From: Winogradskyella flava
GTDB lineage: Bacteria; Bacteroidota; Bacteroidia; Flavobacteriales; Flavobacteriaceae
Direction of reading: 5' to 3'
NCBI RefSeq assembly: GCF_014243395.1
Contig: NZ_JACLCP010000001.1
Coordinates: forward strand, 558,001 to 622,000
DNA: 64,000 nucleotides
Made by a program: the position numbers and the translations under genes. A model generated the notes under the pieces. It searched no databases. It saw only the letters and a list, made by a program, of their open reading frames with translations, and had not been told where the DNA came from. Every line of letters starts with the position of its first letter. The stretch's first letter is position 1. Below, one piece after another: positions 2,701 through 11,840 of this stretch.

Positions 2701-3213
2701 ATGAAAATACGATTTGTTGTTGTATTTCTGCTGTGTTTGTCTCTCACAGGTTTTGCTCAAAAATCTTCCGTAGATTTCGAAATAAAAAATGTTGGTATTA
2801 CCGTCGATGGACATTTTAACACTTTTGTAATTAATGTTGAATTAGGCTCTAATGCAGAGCTAAAGACTATTTCAGGAAAAATCACAGCATCTTCAATTGA
2901 AACAGGAATCGATAGTAGAGACGAACATCTTTTGGAGGAGGATTACTTTCATGTAGAAAAGCATAAGTATATCACACTAAAAAGTACTTCAATTGCTAAG
3001 ACCTCTCCATCAAAATATAGCGTAAAAGCAACCCTTTCCATTAAGGGAAAAACAAAAAGCATTACTATTCCTGTTATGATTCAAAAAGTCGATGGTGGCC
3101 ATAAAATCACTTCTGACTTCGAAATTAATCGCCGCGACTTTGATGTTGGCGGAGGTAGTTTTGTAATGAGCAAAACGGTGAAAATCTATGTCACCCATTA
3201 CCAAAAACTGTAA
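2701..3213 (+). CDS. YceI family periplasmic lipid-binding protein
   Basis: 170 residues with a clear signal peptide (basic start, hydrophobic core VVVFLLCLSLTGFA, cleavage near residue 19-20). The mature part has the YceI layout: a beta-rich barrel with VDFEIKNVGITVDGHF near the start, which corresponds to the family's usual 'F.I.h.G...v.G.F' opening, and a SDFEINRRDFDVGG segment near the end, corresponding to the family's 'l.l.R.dFGv' signature. YceI proteins are lipocalin-like barrels that bind long amphiphilic molecules such as polyisoprenoids. The TAA stop shares its last A with the ATG of the next gene, the FAD oxidoreductase, so the two are probably translationally coupled. This makes the protein a plausible lipid carrier for the product of the downstream pathway; that role is inference. 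Confidence 0.85.
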   Translation: MKIRFVVVFLLCLSLTGFAQKSSVDFEIKNVGITVDGHFNTFVINVELGSNAELKTISGKITASSIETGIDSRDEHLLEEDYFHVEKHKYITLKSTSIAKTSPSKYSVKATLSIKGKTKSITIPVMIQKVDGGHKITSDFEINRRDFDVGGGSFVMSKTVKIYVTHYQKL

Positions 3214-4343
3214 TGCAACAACAACACTTTGATGTTATAATTATCGGTGGTGGACTTGCTGGCTTAACGAGCGCTATTCACTTATCACAATGTAATATTA
3301 GAGTCTTATTAATCGAAAAAAACAGTTATCCAAAACATAAAGTTTGTGGTGAATACGTGTCGAACGAGGTACTGCCTTATTTGAATTTTTTAGGTTTTAA
3401 TCCTTTCGATTTTGGGGCGAAAAAAATCTCAAAATTTGAATTAACCACACATAACAACAAAAAGATTGAAGCAGAGCTACCGTTAGGCGGATTCGGAATG
3501 AGCCGATATGAAATGGATTTTCAGCTTTATCAATTGGCAATAAGGCAGGGTGTTCTAGTTACACAGGATTCTGTTGTTGATGTAACATTTGAAGATGATC
3601 AATTTCATATTCAAACCAAATCAAATCAACGTTTTACTTCAAAAATTACTGTTGGTGCTTTTGGAAAACGATCGAGTTTAGATGTTAAATTTCAACGCCG
3701 ATTCATTGCCAAAAAATCGCCCTACCTAGGCGTGAAAATTCATGTATCAGGTAATTTCCCTGAAGATAAAGTAGCGCTTCACAATTTTAAAGGTGGTTAT
3801 TGTGGAGTGTCTAAAGTGGAGAATAATCATATTAACTTATGTTACATCACCAATTATGACGCATTTAAAAGATATAAGGATATTGAAACATTTCAAGAGG
3901 AAGTGCTCTTTAAGAATTCAGCATTAAAGAATATGTTTCAGAAGTCAAATCCTGAATTTGTAAAACCACTAACCATCAGTCAAATTTCCTTTGAAACTAA
4001 AAACCCTATTGAGAACCATATGATAATGTGTGGTGATTCTGCGGGAATGATTCATCCACTCTGTGGAAATGGTATGGGAATGGCTATAAGAAGTGCGCAA
4101 TTAGCATCTGAACTCATTATTGACTATCTTCAAAAGGAAATAAAAACGCGAGTAGAATTAGAACGTAAGTATAGCAAAAGCTGGAATAAAGCTTTCAGCT
4201 TCAGGTTAAAAGTTGGCCGTACTATTGCCTATTTATTCAGGCAAGATTGGTTGGCGCCAAAATTACTAGTAACTTTAAGAAAGTTACCATTTTTAGTGCC
4301 ACTAATTATAACAATGACACACGGAAAACCAATAGAGATTTGA
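3213..4343 (+). CDS. FAD-dependent oxidoreductase, geranylgeranyl reductase/PHBH-like
   Basis: 376 residues. The N-terminus has the Rossmann dinucleotide motif G12-x-G14-x-x-G17 (IIIGGGLAGL), then an acidic residue ending strand 2 (LLIEK). A second FAD-binding motif, CGDSAGMIHPLCGNGMG, lies at about 273-289, with the GD pair at 274-275. This combination is typical of the FixC/geranylgeranyl-reductase branch of PHBH-fold flavoproteins, which hydroxylate aromatics or reduce isoprenoid double bonds. A hydrophobic, basic C-terminus could bind the membrane. It overlaps YceI upstream by 1 base and the methyltransferase downstream by 1 base. In characterised phenolic-lipid operons a flavoprotein hydroxylase oxidises the alkylresorcinol to a quinone; by analogy this enzyme may oxidise the polyketide ring. 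Exact substrate unknown. Confidence 0.85.
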   Translation: MQQQHFDVIIIGGGLAGLTSAIHLSQCNIRVLLIEKNSYPKHKVCGEYVSNEVLPYLNFLGFNPFDFGAKKISKFELTTHNNKKIEAELPLGGFGMSRYEMDFQLYQLAIRQGVLVTQDSVVDVTFEDDQFHIQTKSNQRFTSKITVGAFGKRSSLDVKFQRRFIAKKSPYLGVKIHVSGNFPEDKVALHNFKGGYCGVSKVENNHINLCYITNYDAFKRYKDIETFQEEVLFKNSALKNMFQKSNPEFVKPLTISQISFETKNPIENHMIMCGDSAGMIHPLCGNGMGMAIRSAQLASELIIDYLQKEIKTRVELERKYSKSWNKAFSFRLKVGRTIAYLFRQDWLAPKLLVTLRKLPFLVPLIITMTHGKPIEI

Positions 4344-5053
4344 TGAGTTTGTTTGTTGATACCACATACAGGAGCACTGCGACAGAAATCATGGACGATT
4401 TTTCCATGAAGGGCGAATTGCTTCGTGATACTTTAGATAAACTGGGCCAAATCAATAAATGGCTTGGTGGAAATCACGTCACATTAAATGGGCTAAAAGA
4501 ATTACTTAAAGACCAACCAAAAGATAAAGCGTATACCATTATAGACTTGGGTTGTGGTCATGGTGACATATTAAGACTAATAGCAGATTATGGAAGACAT
4601 CATAATTATTCATTTCATCTTATTGGGATTGATGCTAACCAAGACGCTATTAAATATGCCAACGAATTATCAAAAGACTATGGCGAACTAACGTTTAAAA
4701 ACCTAGATATTTTTTCTAAAGACTTTGAAAATTTAGACTATGACATGGTGTTGTCTACCTTGTTTTTGCATCATTTTAATCAAAATGAAATCCATACACT
4801 TTTAAAAAAACTAACTGCAAAATCTAAGCTAGGCATCGTTATAAATGATTTACACCGTAATAAAATGGCTTATGGCTTATTTAAATTATTGGGTTTGGTA
4901 ATTTCAAACCATATGATAGTACAAGATGGTTTGACCTCAATTTTAAGAGCATTTAAACGTGAGGAATTAGAAAGCATTTCAGAACAACTCAACCTTAAAT
5001 CACAAATTCGTTGGAAATGGGCATTCCGCTACCAATGGCTAATTAAAACCTAA
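4343..5053 (+). CDS. Class I SAM-dependent methyltransferase
   Basis: 236 residues from the ATG at 4343, which overlaps the upstream TGA as TGATGA coupling; I prefer this to an in-frame Met at 4247 that would overlap the oxidoreductase by 97 bases. SAM-binding motif I is IIDLGCGHGD at residues 66-75, the acidic residue of motif II is D97 (IGIDAN), and a post-motif strand VLSTLFLHHF follows, as in UbiE/MenG-like enzymes. The C-terminal part ends with basic aromatic residues. It sits between the flavoenzyme and the type III PKS, with the PKS ATG immediately after its stop codon. A likely role is O- or C-methylation of the polyketide product. It is not of the ICMT-like type used by the Bacillus and Streptomyces type III PKS operons. 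Confidence 0.85.
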   Translation: MSLFVDTTYRSTATEIMDDFSMKGELLRDTLDKLGQINKWLGGNHVTLNGLKELLKDQPKDKAYTIIDLGCGHGDILRLIADYGRHHNYSFHLIGIDANQDAIKYANELSKDYGELTFKNLDIFSKDFENLDYDMVLSTLFLHHFNQNEIHTLLKKLTAKSKLGIVINDLHRNKMAYGLFKLLGLVISNHMIVQDGLTSILRAFKREELESISEQLNLKSQIRWKWAFRYQWLIKT

Positions 5054-6106
5054 ATGGCAGTAAGAATTACATCGGTTGCAAAGCAACTTCCAAAATACAC
5101 CAGAGAAACCAAAGACATTCTTCCTTATGTCGAACTTTGGCTCGAAGGACAAGAAGAGCGTTTTAAGCGAAAGGTTCTGAAGATTTTCGAAAATGCTGCT
5201 GTTGATAAGCGCTATTCCATAATGGATGCTGAAGAGGTATTTTTAAAAACATCATTTGAAGAAAAAAATGATATTTACATACGAGAATCCGTAAAACTCG
5301 CAGAAAAAAGTCTACTAAAAGCGTTAGATAAGGCCAGTCTAGAACCAACAGATTTAGATTATATCATTACTGTAAGCTGCACAGGTATTATGATTCCATC
5401 ATTAGACGCTTACTTAATAAATCGCCTTAAGCTAAAGCAGGATATTGTGCGTTTACCAGTTACTGAAATGGGGTGTGCAGCTGGAGTTTCAGGAATTTTG
5501 TATGCAAAGAACTTTTTGAAAGCGAATCCTAATAAACGTGCAGTGGTCATTGCTGTAGAATCACCAACGGCTACGTTCCAGCTCGATGATTATTCCATGG
5601 TAAATATCGTAAGCGCTGCTATCTTTGGTGATGGTTGCGCAAGTGTTATTTTATCATCTTATGAAGATGAGGTTGGTCCCGAAATTAAGGACGAAGCCAT
5701 GTACCACTTTTACGATGCAGAACATATGATGGGATTTAAATTAAGGAATACAGGTTTACAAATGGTTTTAGATCAGTCAGTACCTCAGACCATAGCAGAT
5801 CATTTTCCTAATATTATTCATCCATTTTTAGAAAAGAATGATTTAACCATTGCCGATATTGATCACTTAGTGTTTCATCCCGGAGGCAAAAAAATTGTTC
5901 AAACCGTTGAGGACTTATTTGGCGATTTAGGTAAGAACATTGATGATACAAAAGAAGTATTACGCTTATACGGGAACATGAGTAGCGCTACAGTACTTTA
6001 TGTTTTAGAGCGCTTTTTGGATAGAAATTTACCTAAAGGCAACAAAGGCATTATGTTGAGTTTTGGACCTGGATTTTCAGCGCAGAGAATATTATTAGAG
6101 TGGTGA
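5054..6106 (+). CDS. Type III polyketide synthase (chalcone synthase-like)
   Basis: 350 residues, the usual length for bacterial type III PKS. The full catalytic triad is visible: Cys141 in MGCAAG, His275 in VFHPGGKK and Asn308 in YGNMSSAT. SCTGIMIPS near 109 and the glycine-rich C-terminus (LSFGPGFSAQ) are also family hallmarks. These enzymes condense an acyl starter with malonyl-CoA units and cyclise the chain to pyrones, resorcinols or phloroglucinols without a tethered carrier protein. The neighbourhood (KAS, dehydratase, SDR, dedicated ACP) suggests that the starter is a fatty acyl chain made in situ, pointing to an alkylpyrone or phenolic lipid. The start is 0 bases after the methyltransferase stop, and the SDR begins 1 base after its own stop. 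Starter and product identity cannot be read from sequence. Confidence 0.93.
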   Translation: MAVRITSVAKQLPKYTRETKDILPYVELWLEGQEERFKRKVLKIFENAAVDKRYSIMDAEEVFLKTSFEEKNDIYIRESVKLAEKSLLKALDKASLEPTDLDYIITVSCTGIMIPSLDAYLINRLKLKQDIVRLPVTEMGCAAGVSGILYAKNFLKANPNKRAVVIAVESPTATFQLDDYSMVNIVSAAIFGDGCASVILSSYEDEVGPEIKDEAMYHFYDAEHMMGFKLRNTGLQMVLDQSVPQTIADHFPNIIHPFLEKNDLTIADIDHLVFHPGGKKIVQTVEDLFGDLGKNIDDTKEVLRLYGNMSSATVLYVLERFLDRNLPKGNKGIMLSFGPGFSAQRILLEW

Positions 6107-6107
6107 T

Positions 6108-6902
6108 ATGAAAGAATTTAAAGATAAAAATTACTGGGCTTTAATACTGGGAGGCAGTAGCGGTCTTGGTTTGGCGACAGCAAAAAAACTAGCCAAACAT
6201 GGGATGAATATCTGCATCGTCCATCGTAACTCCAGAATGCAAGAGGAAATGATTCAAAATGAATTTGAAATAATCAAACGAGAAAATGTGGAGTTCAAAT
6301 CCTTTAATACCGACGCTTTTAAACCTGAAAAGATTAAAGCGGTTATTGAAACGCTAAAAGCTGAATTTGGTAAAGAACAAAAAATAAGAATTCTAGTACA
6401 TAGCGTTGCTAAGGGAAACTTAAAACCAATGGTTTCAACCGAAAAATCAGTTTTAAAGCATGACGATTTTGCGTTAACCATTAGCGCTATGAGCATCAGT
6501 CTGTACAATTGGACCAAAGCGCTTTACGAAGCTGATTTATTTAGGGAAGACTCAAGAATTATAAGTTTCACAAGTGAGGGCAATAGCAAAGCATGGCAAA
6601 ATTACGCGGCAGTTTCTGCAGCGAAAGTTACACTCGAGGCCATTACTAGAAACATTGCCTTAGAATTTGCACCATATGGTATTAAGGCGAATTGCATTCA
6701 AGCAGGTGTAACAGACACATCATCTTTGCGTATGATTCCAGGAAGTGATCAGATTATAAAATATACATTGCAACGAAATCCTAATAAGCGTTTGACCTTG
6801 CCAGAAGACGTAGCGAACGCTGTATATTTATTAAGTAAAGATGAAGCATCCTGGATAACAGGAACAATAATTCCAGTAGATGGAGGAGAACATTTAAGTT
6901 AG
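6108..6902 (+). CDS. SDR oxidoreductase resembling FabL/FabI enoyl-ACP reductase
   Basis: 264 residues. N-terminal cofactor motif is GGSSGLG at about 15-21. The active site differs from a classical SDR: Tyr166 and Lys173 are separated by six residues (Y-x6-K in NYAAVSAAK), the spacing of divergent enoyl-ACP reductases FabI and FabL rather than the Y-x3-K of ketoreductases. The segment after the Lys (LEAITRNIALEFAPYGIKAN) and the DTSSL stretch are also like FabL. The C-terminus GTIIPVDGG is a normal SDR ending. It sits between the type III PKS (1-base gap) and the FabZ-like gene (1-base gap). I infer an enoyl-thioester reductase in a dedicated fatty-acid-type cycle. A ketoreductase role cannot be excluded, and no other reductase of this kind is present in the locus. 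Confidence 0.8.
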   Translation: MKEFKDKNYWALILGGSSGLGLATAKKLAKHGMNICIVHRNSRMQEEMIQNEFEIIKRENVEFKSFNTDAFKPEKIKAVIETLKAEFGKEQKIRILVHSVAKGNLKPMVSTEKSVLKHDDFALTISAMSISLYNWTKALYEADLFREDSRIISFTSEGNSKAWQNYAAVSAAKVTLEAITRNIALEFAPYGIKANCIQAGVTDTSSLRMIPGSDQIIKYTLQRNPNKRLTLPEDVANAVYLLSKDEASWITGTIIPVDGGEHLS

Positions 6903-6903
6903 A

Positions 6904-7341
6904 ATGACCACATCGGAAATCATAGCACTATTACCCTACCAAAAACCATTTCTGTTTGTGGATGGTATTGATGCTATTTCAGAAGATGGAATAACTGGGT
7001 ATTATAAATTTAAGTCAGATGAACCTTTTTACGATGGTCACTTTAAAAACAATCCATTGACACCAGGTGTAATTCTTACAGAATGTATGGCGCAAATAGG
7101 CTTGGTGTGCTTGGGCATATATTTATCGAAAGATGAGTTTAAAGAAAACTCCAACCCACAAATTGCCTTAACCTCACACGAAATGGATTTTTATTTACCG
7201 GTTTTGCCTGAAGAAAAAGTCATGGTGATTTCTGAAAAGGAAGTTTTTCGTTTTAACAAACTGAAGTGTAAAGTGAAAATGCTAAATGAAAAAGGAGAAT
7301 TGGTAGCAAGAGGTCTAATTTCAGGAATGATGAAAACATGA
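6904..7341 (+). CDS. FabZ/FabA-like hotdog-fold 3-hydroxyacyl-ACP dehydratase
   Basis: 145 residues. The opening LLPYQKPFLFVDG and the active-site segment GHFKNNPLTPGVILTE are those of FabZ, with His46 and Glu60 in the catalytic positions, followed by MAQIG at the start of the central helix. It would remove water from 3-hydroxyacyl-ACP. The length matches FabZ. The last four bases (ATGA) overlap the start of the ketosynthase gene, so translation is probably coupled. Between an SDR and a KAS it forms the core of a type II fatty-acid-like elongation module in the PKS locus. It is distinct from the general FabZ expected elsewhere in the genome. Confidence 0.85.
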   Translation: MTTSEIIALLPYQKPFLFVDGIDAISEDGITGYYKFKSDEPFYDGHFKNNPLTPGVILTECMAQIGLVCLGIYLSKDEFKENSNPQIALTSHEMDFYLPVLPEEKVMVISEKEVFRFNKLKCKVKMLNEKGELVARGLISGMMKT

Positions 7342-8612
7342 AAAATAGAGTCGTCATAACAGGATTAGGCGTAGTTGCACCAAATGGTGTAGGTGTTCCT
7401 CAATTTACAGATGCACTAAAAAGCGGAACATCTGGAATTACTTTTCATCAAGAATTAGCCGACTTGAACTTCTCTTGTCAGATTGGAGGTATACCCAATG
7501 TTTCAGATGAATTAAAGTCAAAATATTTTACGGATTTACAGTTAAGAGGATTTAATAGTTCAGGTATCTTGTATGGTTGTATAGCAGGCATTGATGCATG
7601 GAAAGACGCTGGTTTTGATACGAATCCAGAAAGTGAATTAGATTACGATACAGGACTCATTTTCGGAACAGGTACGTCTGGTGTTGAGAAATTTCGTGAA
7701 GCTATTTATAAGTTGGATGACGGTAATGTCAGACGTTTAGGCAGTACGGTTGTATTACAAACCATGGCAAGTGGCGTCAGTGCGTATCTAAGTGGTATGT
7801 TGGGTTTGGGCAATCAGGTGACCACAAATTCTTCAGCATGCACCACAGGAACTGAAGCTGTATTAATGGGCTACGACCGAATCAAGTACGGAAAAGCAAA
7901 ACGGATGTTGGTAGGCAGTTGTAGTGATCACGGTCCATATGTTTGGGGAGGCTTTGATGCCATGCGTGTCATGACCTATAAACACAATGATAATCCTGAA
8001 AATGGATCGCGCCCAATGAGTACTTCTGCATCAGGTTTTGTGCCCGGAAGTGGTGCAGGCGCTTTGGTTTTAGAATCTTTAGAAAGTGCATTAGCCCGTG
8101 GTGCAACAATTTATGCTGAGGTTTTAGGAGGAGAAGTTAATTCCGGAGGACAACGCCAAGGTGGAACACTAACTGCTCCCAATCCCGAGGTAGTAAAACG
8201 ATGCATTAAAAATGCTTTGAAGAATTCAGAAATAGACTCAAATGAGATCGATGTCATTAATGGTCATCTTACGGCTACCTCTAAAGATACTCTTGAAATT
8301 GAGAATTGGACTAAGGCTTTAGAGAGAGAACATAGTGATTTTCCTTATATAAATTCCACCAAATCACTTATTGGTCATTGTTTGGCTGCCGCTGGCGCCA
8401 TTGAATGTGTGGCAAGTGTTATTCAACTTAAGGAGCAATTTATTGCGCCGAATGGTAACTGTGAAGATTTACATCCAGATATTGAAAATTTGATAGATTC
8501 AAGTTGTATTCCAACAGAAAAAATTGACATGAAGTTTGATGTTATTGCTAAGGCGAGTTTTGGGTTTGGTGATGTTAATGCCTGTGTGATTTTTAAGCGA
8601 TTTAAAGAATAA
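7338..8612 (+). CDS. Divergent FabF-like ketosynthase of the PKS locus
   Basis: 424 residues, KAS II fold. Nucleophile Cys168 is in NSSACTTGTE, and the two active-site histidines are His310 and His347 (SLIGHCLAAAGAIE, with Lys342 upstream), so it should be catalytically competent. The first His motif reads NGHLTATSKDT instead of the NTHGTSTPLGD seen in the housekeeping FabF at 51626-52876. This places it in a separate, specialised subfamily. The GFGDVNACVIF C-terminus is typical. The start overlaps the dehydratase stop by 4 bases. Likely role: elongation of the acyl chain that feeds the type III PKS or another locus-specific chain. A 179-base gap with an inverted-repeat element follows before the ACP gene. 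Confidence 0.88.
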   Translation: MKNRVVITGLGVVAPNGVGVPQFTDALKSGTSGITFHQELADLNFSCQIGGIPNVSDELKSKYFTDLQLRGFNSSGILYGCIAGIDAWKDAGFDTNPESELDYDTGLIFGTGTSGVEKFREAIYKLDDGNVRRLGSTVVLQTMASGVSAYLSGMLGLGNQVTTNSSACTTGTEAVLMGYDRIKYGKAKRMLVGSCSDHGPYVWGGFDAMRVMTYKHNDNPENGSRPMSTSASGFVPGSGAGALVLESLESALARGATIYAEVLGGEVNSGGQRQGGTLTAPNPEVVKRCIKNALKNSEIDSNEIDVINGHLTATSKDTLEIENWTKALEREHSDFPYINSTKSLIGHCLAAAGAIECVASVIQLKEQFIAPNGNCEDLHPDIENLIDSSCIPTEKIDMKFDVIAKASFGFGDVNACVIFKRFKE

Positions 8613-8620
8613 TATTTTTT

Positions 8621-8730
8621 GTCACATCGAGTGTTTTTCTGAGGAACGAAGAAAAATGTATCGAGATGTTATGCACAAAAGGTTCTCGATACTATTTTCA
8701 ATTTCATGAAATTGAAAATCACTCGAACTG
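8621..8730. repeat. Compound inverted-repeat element between KAS and ACP genes
   Basis: Three nested or adjacent inverted repeats occupy this gap. Outer arms TCGAGTG (8627-8633) and CACTCGA (8720-8726); middle arms GTATCGAGA (8658-8666) and TCTCGATAC (8684-8692); and a perfect 26-bp palindrome at 8694-8719 centred on TTTCATGAAA. It looks like the small dispersed hairpin repeats common between flavobacterial genes. It could end transcription after the KAS or stabilise the upstream message. No second copy is in this window. Confidence 0.6.
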
Positions 8731-8766
8731 ATATTAACCTTTATTTTATTTAAGCGATTTATGACT

Positions 8767-8774
8767 TAACTTTA
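8767..8774 (+). promoter_or_regulatory. Candidate -7 element for ACP-PPTase-MMPL
   Basis: TAACTTTA, 17 bases before the ACP start codon, is a one-base departure from TAnnTTTG. With the preceding repeat element it suggests that the ACP, PPTase and exporter may form a second transcription unit. No good -33 box is seen. Confidence 0.3.
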
Positions 8775-8791
8775 CATTTCAAAATTGCACT

Positions 8792-9043
8792 ATGAAAAAG
8801 GACGAATTAATTGCCAAATTAAAAACTATTATTGCACCTTATATTCAAGATGAGGAGGCTTTCAAAGACCTGTCAGAAGACACAGATTTTGTAAAGGACC
8901 TAAAAATAAACTCGGCTAATCTGGTCGATATTATATTAGACATTGAAGACGAGTTTGATATTCGCTTAGAAAACGAGGATATGGAGCAAATGCTAGATGT
9001 GAAATCTGCTATGGCAATTGTAAATTCTAAATTGGAAGCGTAG
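8792..9043 (+). CDS. Divergent acyl carrier protein of the PKS locus
   Basis: 83 residues, acidic and helical, of ACP length. The phosphopantetheine attachment site is Ser41 in KINSANLVDIILDIEDEF. The usual DSL tripeptide is NSA here, whereas the housekeeping ACP at 51379-51612 has GADSL around Ser37. The hydrophobic pattern of helix II after the Ser and the EFDI turn are retained, so it should be modified. The TAG stop overlaps the GTG start of the phosphopantetheinyl transferase by one base, a strong hint that the transferase serves this ACP. It probably carries intermediates for the KAS, dehydratase and SDR upstream. Confidence 0.85.
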   Translation: MKKDELIAKLKTIIAPYIQDEEAFKDLSEDTDFVKDLKINSANLVDIILDIEDEFDIRLENEDMEQMLDVKSAMAIVNSKLEA

Positions 9044-9585
9044 TGGTTGGCAATGACATTGTTGATCTAAAAGAAGCAGAAAAAGCTTCGAATTGGCAAC
9101 GTCCAAGATGGTTAGATAAACTTTTTACGATCAGCGAAAAGCAATTGATTCATAATTCTGAAAATCCCTTTGTAATGGTTTGGCGCTTATGGAGTATGAA
9201 AGAAGCTGCTTATAAGCTCTTCATCCAAACAAACCCAAGTCGCTTTTATAATCCAAAAGGGTTTGAGTGCAGTATTAGTGATAATTCAGGCGTTATTGAA
9301 TTCAAGGCTTTTAAATGTTTTGTCCAGACTAAAATCACATCAAACTATATCATTTCTGAAGCGCATTTAGAGCACCAAAAGCTGACTTCTGAAATTATGA
9401 AATTTACAACTGCTGATTATAATAAACAGAGCAAAGAATTAAAATCAAGACTTATGGAATTCGTTGGTAGATTGCATCATTTGAAGAAGAATGAATTCGG
9501 TGTTCCTACATTATACAATGGGAGAGAAGCATTAAATGTAAGCCTAACACATCATGGTTGTTATGGAGCTTATGCAATAGGATAA
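9043..9585 (+). CDS. 4'-phosphopantetheinyl transferase superfamily protein
   Basis: 180 residues from a GTG start that shares a base with the ACP stop codon. The N-terminus VGNDIVDL (Asp5 and Asp8) matches the Mg-binding opening of AcpS-type enzymes, and WSMKEAAYK (Lys53, Glu54, Lys58) is the second hallmark motif. At 180 residues it is longer than AcpS (about 120) and shorter than Sfp (about 220). The C-terminal extension ends in SLTHHGCYGAYAIG. It should transfer phosphopantetheine from CoA to Ser41 of the adjacent ACP. The MMPL gene follows after 2 bases. A locus-specific PPTase suggests that the NSA-type ACP is not handled well by the housekeeping AcpS; that is inference. Confidence 0.88.
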   Translation: MVGNDIVDLKEAEKASNWQRPRWLDKLFTISEKQLIHNSENPFVMVWRLWSMKEAAYKLFIQTNPSRFYNPKGFECSISDNSGVIEFKAFKCFVQTKITSNYIISEAHLEHQKLTSEIMKFTTADYNKQSKELKSRLMEFVGRLHHLKKNEFGVPTLYNGREALNVSLTHHGCYGAYAIG

Positions 9586-9587
9586 TT

Positions 9588-11840
9588 ATGAAACGATTGA
9601 AACGGCTGATACCAATTATCATAAAGTTTAGAATTGCAATTATTGCAGTTCTTGCCGTTTTAATGGCACTCTCAGGTCATCAAACGCTTAACAAGCTTAG
9701 TGTAGACAATTCATTGTCCATTTGGTTTTTGGAAGATGATCCTAGCTACAAAGCTTATATCGATTTTCAAGAAAACTTTGGGTCTGATGAGATTTTTATT
9801 GCCATGCTTCCTGTTGCAAATGCTATAGGTGAAGCAGAAGTGAACAAGTTACATGAACTACATCAATCTGTAGAAGCTTTGCCATATGTTAAAACAACCT
9901 TTAGTCTTGCCAAAGCTAAATATCCTCTCTATGCAAACGGCAATATAAGATTTGATGACCTATACAATTCAAGACGTAGTGAAAAAGGTTTAAAAAGCTT
10001 GTTTTCGAAACTGGAAAACATCACATCCCAATTGGTGACTAAGGATTATAAAAATCAATTGTTTTATATCCAAATGCAACCCACACCTACTATTGAGGAA
10101 GATCGTCAGGACATTGCTGTAGAGATTAAAAGTGTGATTGACCAAACTTATTCAGATTACTTTCTAACAGGTCCGCCAGTGTTGAATGAAGCTTACAGTA
10201 AAGGGATTTACAAAGAGAGTTTAATATTTGGGATTCTTACGGTTTTAGTAATTACGGTTTTACTGTTATTCTTATTGCCGAGTAAACGATATTTACTTAT
10301 AGCACTTATTTCTGTTGCAGTGCCTGTTAGTTTACTGTTTGGCTTAATAACATCATTAGGATTTGCATTGAATATGATTTCCATGCTTATCCCAACGATT
10401 CTAATGGTGTATAGTGTTAGTGATGCCGTTCACATTATAAACATCTATCATAAAGAGGGCCTTGCAAACGGATCAATGTCTAAAGTAGATTTATTGGCGA
10501 TTGCTATTCGGAAAAGTTTAACGCCATGCTTCTATACAACATTAACGACTCTTGTTGGGTATTTTGCACTCTACCTATCGCCATTGCCCGCATTTAAAAA
10601 TATGGGAGTTTTTACTTGCATTGGGTTGGTGTTCAGTTTTTTATTGGTATATCTTATTACCATTATTGGTTTTAGTTTCATGAATTTAAACTTTAAAGAA
10701 GCCAAACCAATTTTAAGTTTTAAGACCTATTCTCAAACCAATTTTATTACTTGGCTAAATGGCTTTACAAGTCAATATAAGAACACTTTGATAATATCAT
10801 TTACAGCAGTGCTGTTATTTGGAATCTATTCCATCTTTCAGGTGAAGATCGATACAAACTCTCGTGATCTATTGGCCGAAGGAAAAGCGAAGCAAGATCT
10901 TAGAGCAGTAGAAGTTGAGCTTGGTGGTAGCAATCGGTTACAATTAAATATTGCCACTAATGATGGTAGCGTAATTATAAGTAAAGAGGCGATTAGTAAA
11001 TTAGAAGTCTTTCAGAATAATCTTGAGAGTAATCCCTTAATTTCCAATCCCGTTTCGGTAGTAACGATCAAATCCTTTTTAGAAAAACGAACTCCCGTGT
11101 TGTTTCAGTCGAATGTATCTGAAACCAAGCTCAAAAGTACATTAGAGGATGTGGATGCCAGTGAGAATAGTTTCTTTAAATTATTCTCTGAAGATTTATC
11201 TACAGCAGGTTTTACGTTGACACTTATGGAAATGAGAACCTCTGAACTAGAGCAAGTTCTTGATGAGATTAAGAAAGCCTTTGAATCTACATTTGATACA
11301 AATGACTATAACTTAAAAATCAATGGATTTGCGGTGGTATTTTCACAATTAAACAACTTCATATTAGAGACTCAATTCAAATCCTTTTTCGCTGCATTTT
11401 TTGTGGCATTTCTATGCCTTTGGATTTTCATAAAAAATCTGAGAACAACCATTTTGGTATTAGTTCCAAATATTTTGCCACTGGCTATCTTGGCTATTTT
11501 TATGAGTTTATTGGATATTCCATTGGATGTCACCACAGCCATGATTACACCAATCATGTTGGGTATAGCCATGGATGATACCATTCATCTTGTACATAAA
11601 TACAGACGAAGCAAATACATTACAGGTTCTCCAAATGATCGTATGAATAATGCTATGCACTATACGGGCAGTGCATTAATATCTACGACCATTGCATTGG
11701 TTGGAGGGTTTTTAATTATAGCCTCTAGCGCTACACCATCAGTTAAGGATTTTGGATTGCTTTGTGCTGTTACGGTAGCTATTGCCTTGATTACGGATAT
11801 TTTTTATCTACCGGCTTTGTTGAAGAAGTTTGATAAGTAA
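9588..11840 (+). CDS. MMPL/RND-family lipid exporter
   Basis: 750 residues from the ATG at 9588, two bases after the PPTase stop. An in-frame Met at 9558 would overlap the PPTase and is less likely. Layout is the RND/MMPL duplication: membrane segment at about 8-28, a large extracytoplasmic domain, a cluster of membrane segments from about 205 to 360, a second large loop, and a second cluster from about 600 to the end. Each half has the MMPL-type acidic motif within a helix: SVSDAVHI in the first half and GIAMDDTIH near 658 in the second. These exporters move lipids and polyketide-lipid conjugates using the proton gradient. As the last gene of the locus it is the obvious candidate for moving the product out of the inner membrane, perhaps to the YceI protein. 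It ends 3 bases before a convergent gene. Confidence 0.88.
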   Translation: MKRLKRLIPIIIKFRIAIIAVLAVLMALSGHQTLNKLSVDNSLSIWFLEDDPSYKAYIDFQENFGSDEIFIAMLPVANAIGEAEVNKLHELHQSVEALPYVKTTFSLAKAKYPLYANGNIRFDDLYNSRRSEKGLKSLFSKLENITSQLVTKDYKNQLFYIQMQPTPTIEEDRQDIAVEIKSVIDQTYSDYFLTGPPVLNEAYSKGIYKESLIFGILTVLVITVLLLFLLPSKRYLLIALISVAVPVSLLFGLITSLGFALNMISMLIPTILMVYSVSDAVHIINIYHKEGLANGSMSKVDLLAIAIRKSLTPCFYTTLTTLVGYFALYLSPLPAFKNMGVFTCIGLVFSFLLVYLITIIGFSFMNLNFKEAKPILSFKTYSQTNFITWLNGFTSQYKNTLIISFTAVLLFGIYSIFQVKIDTNSRDLLAEGKAKQDLRAVEVELGGSNRLQLNIATNDGSVIISKEAISKLEVFQNNLESNPLISNPVSVVTIKSFLEKRTPVLFQSNVSETKLKSTLEDVDASENSFFKLFSEDLSTAGFTLTLMEMRTSELEQVLDEIKKAFESTFDTNDYNLKINGFAVVFSQLNNFILETQFKSFFAAFFVAFLCLWIFIKNLRTTILVLVPNILPLAILAIFMSLLDIPLDVTTAMITPIMLGIAMDDTIHLVHKYRRSKYITGSPNDRMNNAMHYTGSALISTTIALVGGFLIIASSATPSVKDFGLLCAVTVAIALITDIFYLPALLKKFDK

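Follow-up and report, generated by a model that had tools for sequence, protein, structure and literature searches.

Srs is a triad of type III polyketide synthase (PKS), methyltransferase (MT) and flavoprotein, and BpsA/BpsB consists of a type III PKS plus an ICMT methyltransferase. Among further systems, known here from excerpts of the cited papers, hidABC makes hierridins, for which a C14 start bound to acyl carrier protein (ACP) is proposed; carrier use by CylI and, as speculation, by ArsB/C is discussed in the same source (PMC8086630). When expressed in a heterologous host, the PKSs of planctomycete MT-oxidoreductase-PKS operons yield pentadecyl- and heptadecylresorcinols, one MT is probably a C-methyltransferase and the role of the oxidoreductase is unsettled (PMC10896814); DpgA, Pks11 and Ars are treated in PMC6274091. 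Here we describe an operon of ten genes at positions 2701-11840 (+ strand) of a 64,000-nucleotide window, the whole stretch of DNA analyzed, from Winogradskyella flava. It runs from a YceI gene to an MMPL transporter gene and includes a type III PKS. Judged from its genes, the operon fairly probably makes a modified phenolic lipid (hierridin-like) or a lipid pyrone, with a portable acyl-ACP cassette feeding the type III PKS and methylation and flavin chemistry following. A preliminary description of this DNA had proposed dedicated acyl-ACP supply to the PKS ahead of methylation and flavin chemistry, and we infer the same central steps.

In excerpts of two Flavobacteriaceae surveys, type III PKS clusters account for 9% (PMC7440613) and 10.74% (PMC10734526) of predicted clusters, and further Flavobacteriaceae or Bacteroidota counts appear in PMC7477175, PMC9323603, PMC7615552, PMC10456417, PMC9859067, PMC9100364, and PMC10233909. 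A W. bathintestinalis cluster is given 8% similarity to a beta-lactam cluster (PMC7615552), and a table names hypocrellin and kanamycin synthesis for the type III PKSs of Spirosoma and Flavobacterium species (PMC9100364), an assignment that is given there without supporting evidence and that we have not followed. The cluster class is already known from such surveys. In the open-access literature, as far as its excerpts extend, we found no isolated product of a flavobacterial type III PKS cluster, in agreement with the preliminary description, and no account of the pairing of the cassette with the PKS or of its DarB-linked relatives.

As in hidABC and the planctomycete operons, the type III PKS adjoins an MT and an oxidoreductase (PMC8086630, PMC10896814), which bears out the earlier view that PKS, MT and flavoprotein form a known phenolic-lipid arrangement. 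The 'Saltatorellus ferox' operon (two methyltransferases and a PKS) has a gene for a lipid/isoprenoid-binding protein upstream, as YceI is here (PMC10896814). Unlike these operons, the present locus holds a cassette of ketoacyl-ACP synthase (KAS), dehydratase (DH), enoyl reductase and ACP, none of which the excerpts describe there, and its gene order differs; the text of PMC8086630 uses none of the terms 'ketosynthase', 'FabF' and 'dehydratase', and the excerpts of PMC5916927 hold nothing on cassettes. Azotobacter ars also has a dedicated fatty acid synthase (FAS) feeding a type III PKS, but there it is one large type I FAS, whereas the proteins here are separate, small, single-domain and type II-like (PMC6274091). 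The CylI pathway to [7.7]paracyclophanes shares a type III PKS fed by carrier-bound chains, as proposed here, but employs type I PKS modules and a halogenase (PMC8086630). By analogy, the operon may work like a hierridin-type tailoring pair combined with an ars-like dedicated chain supply; if the hand-over is true, it would be a small-protein counterpart of the Azotobacter pair of type I FAS and type III PKS.

Gene families were assigned by Pfam and NCBIfam profile matches. All ten open reading frames (ORFs) stand on the + strand where the preliminary description had put them, and the profiles agree with the families it named:

2701-3213, + strand: YceI-like secreted lipid/isoprenoid-binding protein (Pfam YceI, 96 bits); optional member
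3213-4343, + strand: flavin adenine dinucleotide (FAD) enzyme of the GGR/UbiH/halogenase fold (GG-red-SF, 110.9 bits, under the cut-off of 158.8); CGEY motif present, Asp of the DG motif absent
4343-5053, + strand: class I S-adenosylmethionine (SAM) MT (Methyltransf_31, 53.8 bits; PRK06202, 136 bits, under the cut-off of 243)
5054-6106, + strand: type III PKS, Cys141-His275-Asn308 (Pfam/NCBIfam, fold match)
6108-6902, + strand: FabL-like enoyl reductase, a short-chain dehydrogenase/reductase (SDR) with Tyr166-x6-Lys173 (top NCBIfam model FabL, 163.7 bits, under the cut-off of 328)
6904-7341, + strand: FabZ-like DH, His46/Glu60 (Pfam/NCBIfam, residue alignment)
7338-8612, + strand: FabF-like KAS, Cys168-His310-His347 (Pfam/NCBIfam, residue alignment)
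8613-8791, + strand: intergenic stretch of 179 bases with two inverted repeats (sequence inspection)
8792-9043, + strand: ACP, Ser41 (PP-binding, 25 bits)
9043-9585, + strand: phosphopantetheinyl transferase (PPTase), GTG start (ACPS, 42.8 bits)
9588-11840, + strand: MMPL/RND-type transporter, ATG at 9588 (MMPL, 111 bits; HAE3, 192 bits); optional member

Eight of the nine joints either overlap (at 3213, 4343, 7338, and 9043) or are 0-2 bases wide, with 0 bases between MT and PKS, 1 base before each of SDR and DH, and 2 before MMPL. The close spacing described earlier is thus found everywhere except at the KAS-ACP joint. The MT can start at ATG 4343, and the longer ORF from 4247 is unnecessary.

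The cassette and the PKS are widespread in the family and occur together. Among 299 Flavobacteriaceae genomes, the PKS was matched (E ≤ 1e-40) in 104, of which G072 (32% identity) was set aside; a KAS orthologue (E ≤ 1e-110) is present in 101 of the remaining 103 genomes and in 0 of the 196 without a PKS orthologue. The FAD enzyme (E ≤ 1e-80) was found in 102 genomes, all inside the PKS set, and G150 (besides G072) has the PKS without it. In 97 of the 101 genomes, KAS and PKS share a strand, and the KAS start is 1.5-5.4 kb downstream of the PKS start. The two genes are on different contigs in G066 and G276, possibly owing to assembly breaks, whereas in G190 they stand about 356 kb apart on one contig and in G144 they lie mid-contig on two contigs. 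In G144 and G190 the separation is real: FAD-MT-PKS-SDR occupies one site and DH-KAS-ACP another. That these genomes have kept the two halves although they are no longer linked is the strongest indication that both serve one pathway. From the co-occurrence, together with the two genomes that keep both parts unlinked, we conclude that the fatty-acid-type genes belong with the PKS.

Gene order was compared in 80 near loci (L005-L084, the best 80 of 566 confirmed relatives), several of which end at contig edges, so that the counts are lower bounds, and in 19 divergent loci hand-picked from genome searches (L085-L104 minus L090, which has a distant PKS only). The core FAD-MT-PKS-DH-KAS-ACP is found in order in 72 of the 80 near and 18 of the 19 divergent loci, an arrangement that is more than chance. 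The complete ten-gene order that the preliminary description had suggested looking for among relatives is confined to 25 of the near loci, although relative order is kept in 79 (YceI is downstream in L079). In the near loci, MT is present in 80, FAD in 79, DH in 77, KAS, ACP, and PPTase in 74 each, SDR in 70, YceI in 44, and MMPL in 28; in the divergent loci, FAD and MT are present in 19 each, SDR in 15, PPTase in 5 (a count that may be low, as the profile was built from near loci), YceI in 1, and MMPL in 0. By these numbers YceI, PPTase and above all MMPL are optional, and we rejected the MMPL exporter and YceI as core members; the export step assigned earlier to the locus is accordingly not part of its core role.

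The fatty-acid-type genes have intact active sites. In alignments of orthologues from L005-L104 plus the window (PKS, 100 rows; KAS, 94; DH, 95; SDR, 86; ACP, 94), conservation is almost complete (at least 98.5%) at KAS Cys168/His310/His347, DH His46/Glu60, SDR Tyr166-x6-Lys173 and ACP Ser41. The Y-x6-K motif noted earlier in the SDR is therefore confirmed, and the enzyme scores higher with FabL (163.7 bits) than with FabG (114.4 bits), although neither cut-off is reached; its closest solved relative is Bacillus subtilis FabL (PDB 3oic). Because of this motif and the FabL best match, we regard the SDR as enoyl-reductase-like and rejected it as a ketoreductase.

The operon encodes enzymes for condensation, dehydration and enoyl reduction, a carrier, and the enzyme that activates this carrier; neither a ketoreductase nor a malonyl transferase is among its ten genes. 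Elsewhere in the 3.85-Mb host genome are a FabG (338 bits, above the cut-off), an enoyl-reductase-like match (117 bits, under the cut-off), a second PPTase, and one further FabF-type KAS that adjoins one further PP-binding match and is read with it as a housekeeping pair. The operon KAS is 35% identical to this other KAS, and the genome has two PP-binding matches (E ≤ 0.001), one being the operon ACP. With ketoreductase and malonyl transferase lacking from the operon and FabG elsewhere, the module is additional to, yet dependent on, general fatty acid synthesis. Of the earlier claim that the PKS has its own fatty-acid-type module, the association holds and the completeness does not. A second lipid cluster, of flexirubin or aryl polyene type, in the genome was rejected, as there are only two FabF-type KAS matches.

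The PKS itself belongs to the type III PKS family. In alignments, Cys141, His275 and Asn308, the residues singled out in the preliminary description, correspond to the catalytic positions of Pks11 and of further type III PKSs with solved structures; across the 100 aligned rows they hardly vary (98.5% conservation or more). The modeled structure has a fold like that of chalcone synthase (CHS), matching Pks11, CylI and CHS. It is not of the dar, DpgA, ars or Bps type. With the DarB model it scores 27 bits against a cut-off of 550, and it lacks a neighboring ICMT, the MT of the window being of the class I SAM type. Its top NCBIfam model is DpgA, at 172.6 bits, which would fit a PKS making a short malonyl-only aromatic (DpgA- or tetrahydroxynaphthalene-like), with the lipid genes attaching or carrying the product. 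This score is far under the cut-off of 425, and four Bacteroidota PKSs outside the clade of the window PKS score 130-177 bits, so the match is generic; we rejected the PKS as DpgA and regard a malonyl-only product as highly improbable.

The FAD enzyme and the MT have relatives in operons without the cassette. Of 40 distant Bacteroidota PKS loci (L105-L144), 15 have MT and FAD neighbors, nine of them with the closer FAD subtype (GGR-type triads), and KAS, DH, ACP and PPTase gave no match at any of the 40. The AlphaFold2 model of the FAD enzyme (pLDDT 82, loop 152-166 low) has flavin halogenases and monooxygenase-type proteins as its ten top PDB matches, at 15-19% identity. The DG motif is relevant for flavin hydroxylases. 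In all 21 flavobacterial-type rows its Asp position is occupied by Y, F or W, and in all nine GGR-type triads by F, Y or H, whereas DG is retained in four of the six other triads. The GGR-type triads have CGEY and GK in 9/9 and GKRS in 5/9 (variants with K or Q in the third place counted apart). With the Asp replaced in all flavobacterial-type rows, a plain DG-motif hydroxylase was rejected; a halogenase was also rejected despite the fold matches, as the WxWxIP motif of such enzymes is absent by eye. Hydroxylation, oxidation and reduction are possible reactions of the enzyme.

The identities between the window and the nine GGR-type triads are 37-46% for FAD and 32-41% for MT, but only 25-31% for PKS, whereas among 20 cassette-linked loci it is the PKS that is most conserved (55-95%, versus 39-81% for FAD and 37-84% for MT). 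In the PKS tree, 21 cassette-linked rows form one clade (support 100), which has a long stem and is separate from the triad PKSs. A single clade of the cassette-linked PKSs and the nine Bacteroidota GGR-type triad PKSs was rejected (p-AU 0.00096, quick tree; the test left out two long rows, L110 and L127). The operon is of hierridin type in the adjacency of its PKS to MT and oxidoreductase, and that PKS lies outside the clade of the Bacteroidota triad PKSs. Most simply, an older FAD-MT-PKS operon would have had its PKS exchanged for one from another clade; alternatively, the PKS may have passed through a phase of rapid change.

Residues near-fixed and specific to the clade (21 clade rows compared with 40 other Bacteroidota PKSs) include Pro171, Gln344, Ile114, Glu138, Ala173, Met216, and Phe228. 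In all 40 of the other PKSs, position 171 is Cys and position 344 is Glu; by our count Pro171 presumably equals Thr194 of plant CHS, a cyclization-pocket position. The basic residues Arg36 and Lys43 are also specific to the clade, and Arg39 and Lys40 are fixed in it and partly common to other PKSs.

The relationships of the PKS bear on the type of ring. The clade shows a weak affinity (SH-aLRT 90) to 18 Bacteroidota PKSs, and an ICMT-type MT, which we take to be the kind found with BpsA/B, adjoins five of the six of these that were scanned (L106, L108, L109, L112, and L118; not L121). The locus is like the BpsA/BpsB type in this affinity and unlike it in having an FAD enzyme, a soluble MT and the cassette, with no ICMT. 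Pks11, an alkylpyrone synthase, is the top match of the modeled PKS in sequence and fold, and the resorcinol former CylI comes next in fold (25-26% identity in the fold alignment); both handle acyl chains. The Pks11 match and the weak grouping with ICMT-linked PKSs are what would be expected if, after the same hand-over, the PKS released an alkylpyrone by lactonization and the MT and flavoenzyme decorated the pyrone. We consider this outcome unlikely, as the FAD enzyme and MT resemble those of FAD-MT-PKS triads, a kind of operon that the excerpts connect with resorcinol formation in planctomycetes and cyanobacteria; CylI is the next-best fold match, and the mode of cyclization cannot be read from the sequence here.

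Relatives of the cassette occur in other settings. In a phylum sample of 395 Bacteroidota genomes, which overlaps the family sample, KAS (E ≤ 1e-80) is present in 33 of 33 genomes with a PKS orthologue (at least 66% identity). In two genomes of other families (L176 in G394, L177 in G675), SDR-DH-KAS-ACP-PPTase stands in the same order, back to back with DarB-DarG-DarH (cassette and Dar operons at L176:8379-18163 and L177:8358-18014). The three Dar proteins are all above their NCBIfam cut-offs, and L176 adds ATP-binding cassette (ABC) transporter genes. The cassette proteins are 42-45% (SDR), 49% (DH), 52-54% (KAS), 37-40% (ACP), and 24-27% (PPTase) identical to those of the window. The cassette is common to the two kinds of cluster without being a defining feature of the dar/flexirubin kind, and it links PKS clusters to dialkylresorcinol clusters; the ring former of the dar/flexirubin clusters is DarB, a KAS III relative, whereas here it is a type III PKS and DarB is absent. 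DH-KAS-ACP also occurs near a family 2 glycosyltransferase in what resembles a lipid cluster (L178:7504-11886 in G419, L179:7909-11033 in G342, and L180:9000-14194 in G372); among these, only L180 carries a comparable SDR, and in L178 a gene for a GNAT-like protein lies ahead of DH. A KAS tree was built from 22 of the roughly 94 available PKS-linked rows, the five control rows and two outgroup KAS. In it the PKS-linked rows fall on one side of a branch (94/95), and the DarB-linked (100/100) and glycosyltransferase-linked (98/96) rows each form one group; the position of the root is uncertain owing to very long outgroup branches. These relatives support SDR-DH-KAS-ACP-PPTase as a probable portable chain-supply unit.

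The same relatives allow two other explanations. If the cassette made an unusual acyl chain for a separate lipid while the PKS used coenzyme A (CoA) esters, the two would be mere co-inherited neighbors, in keeping with the cassettes found beside DarB or near a glycosyltransferase without the PKS and with the FAD-MT-PKS triads that lack a cassette at the locus. The presence of KAS in 101/103 versus 0/196 genomes, and the upkeep of both halves unlinked in G190 and G144, make this quite unlikely. Alternatively, KAS and DH could build an unsaturated or polyene chain, and the product would be a pigment-like aryl polyene with the PKS ring at its end. In favor of this, a ketoreductase is missing from the operon, no enoyl reductase was found in 10/80 near and 4/19 divergent loci, and cassette relatives adjoin dialkylresorcinol/flexirubin genes; with an enoyl-reductase-like SDR in most loci, its catalytic pair near-invariant, we judge a polyene very unlikely.

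Several observations weigh against the proposal that the cassette feeds the PKS for a tailored phenolic lipid or pyrone. Type III PKSs often use CoA esters. Five of the 362 genomes of the phylum sample without a PKS orthologue carry such a KAS (47-54% identical) in other settings, so the cassette does not belong to this PKS exclusively. Each of the five has, at another place in its genome, a distant type III PKS (31-35% identical); the one in G675 is part of an FAD-MT-PKS triad (L129), which shares a contig with the DarB-linked cassette at a distance of about 118 kb. Within the family, G138 has PKS and FAD and no KAS match, as does G293, whose assembly is 76% complete. Besides the loci in which it was not found, the SDR stays with the PKS in G190 and G144, away from DH-KAS-ACP, which fits a tailoring role as well as one in chain supply. 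When the flavobacterial rows are constrained to stand with those of the GGR-type triads, the MT tree is borderline (p-AU 0.051), and the corresponding FAD grouping has a support of 39. The surveyed genomes are related, so the counts are not independent events, and the Fisher p value for the co-occurrence, computed with G072 included, ignores this relatedness and is not to be read literally.

With these points in view, we still favor supply of the PKS by the cassette. The dedicated ACP would be charged by the operon PPTase or the second PPTase of the genome, and KAS would load and extend the chain on it. Reduction would be carried out by housekeeping FabG and dehydration by the operon DH, and saturation of the chain would fall to the FabL-like SDR or to an enoyl reductase of the housekeeping set. 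The type III PKS could then accept the acyl-ACP, add malonyl units and close the ring, after which the MT would methylate the ring and the flavoenzyme hydroxylate, oxidize or reduce it, as proposed for hierridin-type operons. The hand-over, the ring type, the order and nature of tailoring and the destination of the product are what we infer from the gene set. In Flavobacteriaceae, the portable cassette would have been joined to a type III PKS and an FAD-MT pair like that of the cassette-free operons. Pairing with a discrete acyl-ACP cassette offers a testable account of where the chain originates and makes a family-wide lipid predictable.

A broader scheme, which we advance tentatively and rate a little below an even chance, would have an interchangeable Bacteroidota cassette plugged into type III PKS, DarB and glycosyltransferase pathways; in Flavobacteriaceae an ACP-adapted PKS of another clade, with a changed cyclization pocket (Pro171), would have taken the place of the original PKS in an older FAD-MT-PKS operon, so that two ring formers draw on one chain machine.

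Winogradskyella luteola, W. vincentii and a contig labeled Muricauda sp. CP2A have PKSs that share 95% identity with the one described here. PKS operons also occur beyond the expected lineage, in L007 and L010 on Muricauda/Flagellimonas contigs (PKS identity 94-95%) and in L085, L086, and L087 from three genomes of other families (72-73%), which suggests horizontal transfer or contamination. In the Winogradskyella loci L032, L034, L035, and L037, YceI, SDR and MMPL were not found and FAD-MT-PKS-DH-KAS-ACP-PPTase is retained.

About 9-12 kb upstream of the operon, on the same strand, are fabH-accB-accC-type genes for malonyl-CoA supply (L146:5056-8002). The accC-type family occurs at 43 and the accB-type at 39 of 100 fetched PKS loci; the Acc/FabH neighborhood as a functional link to the operon was rejected, being positional only. 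The two inverted repeats of the KAS-ACP gap lie within 8651-8719. Inside the window the repeat matches only itself and its own palindrome, and the gap stretch has 24 matches in 21 of the compared records; in 18 cases the match lies between operon genes of L005-L084.

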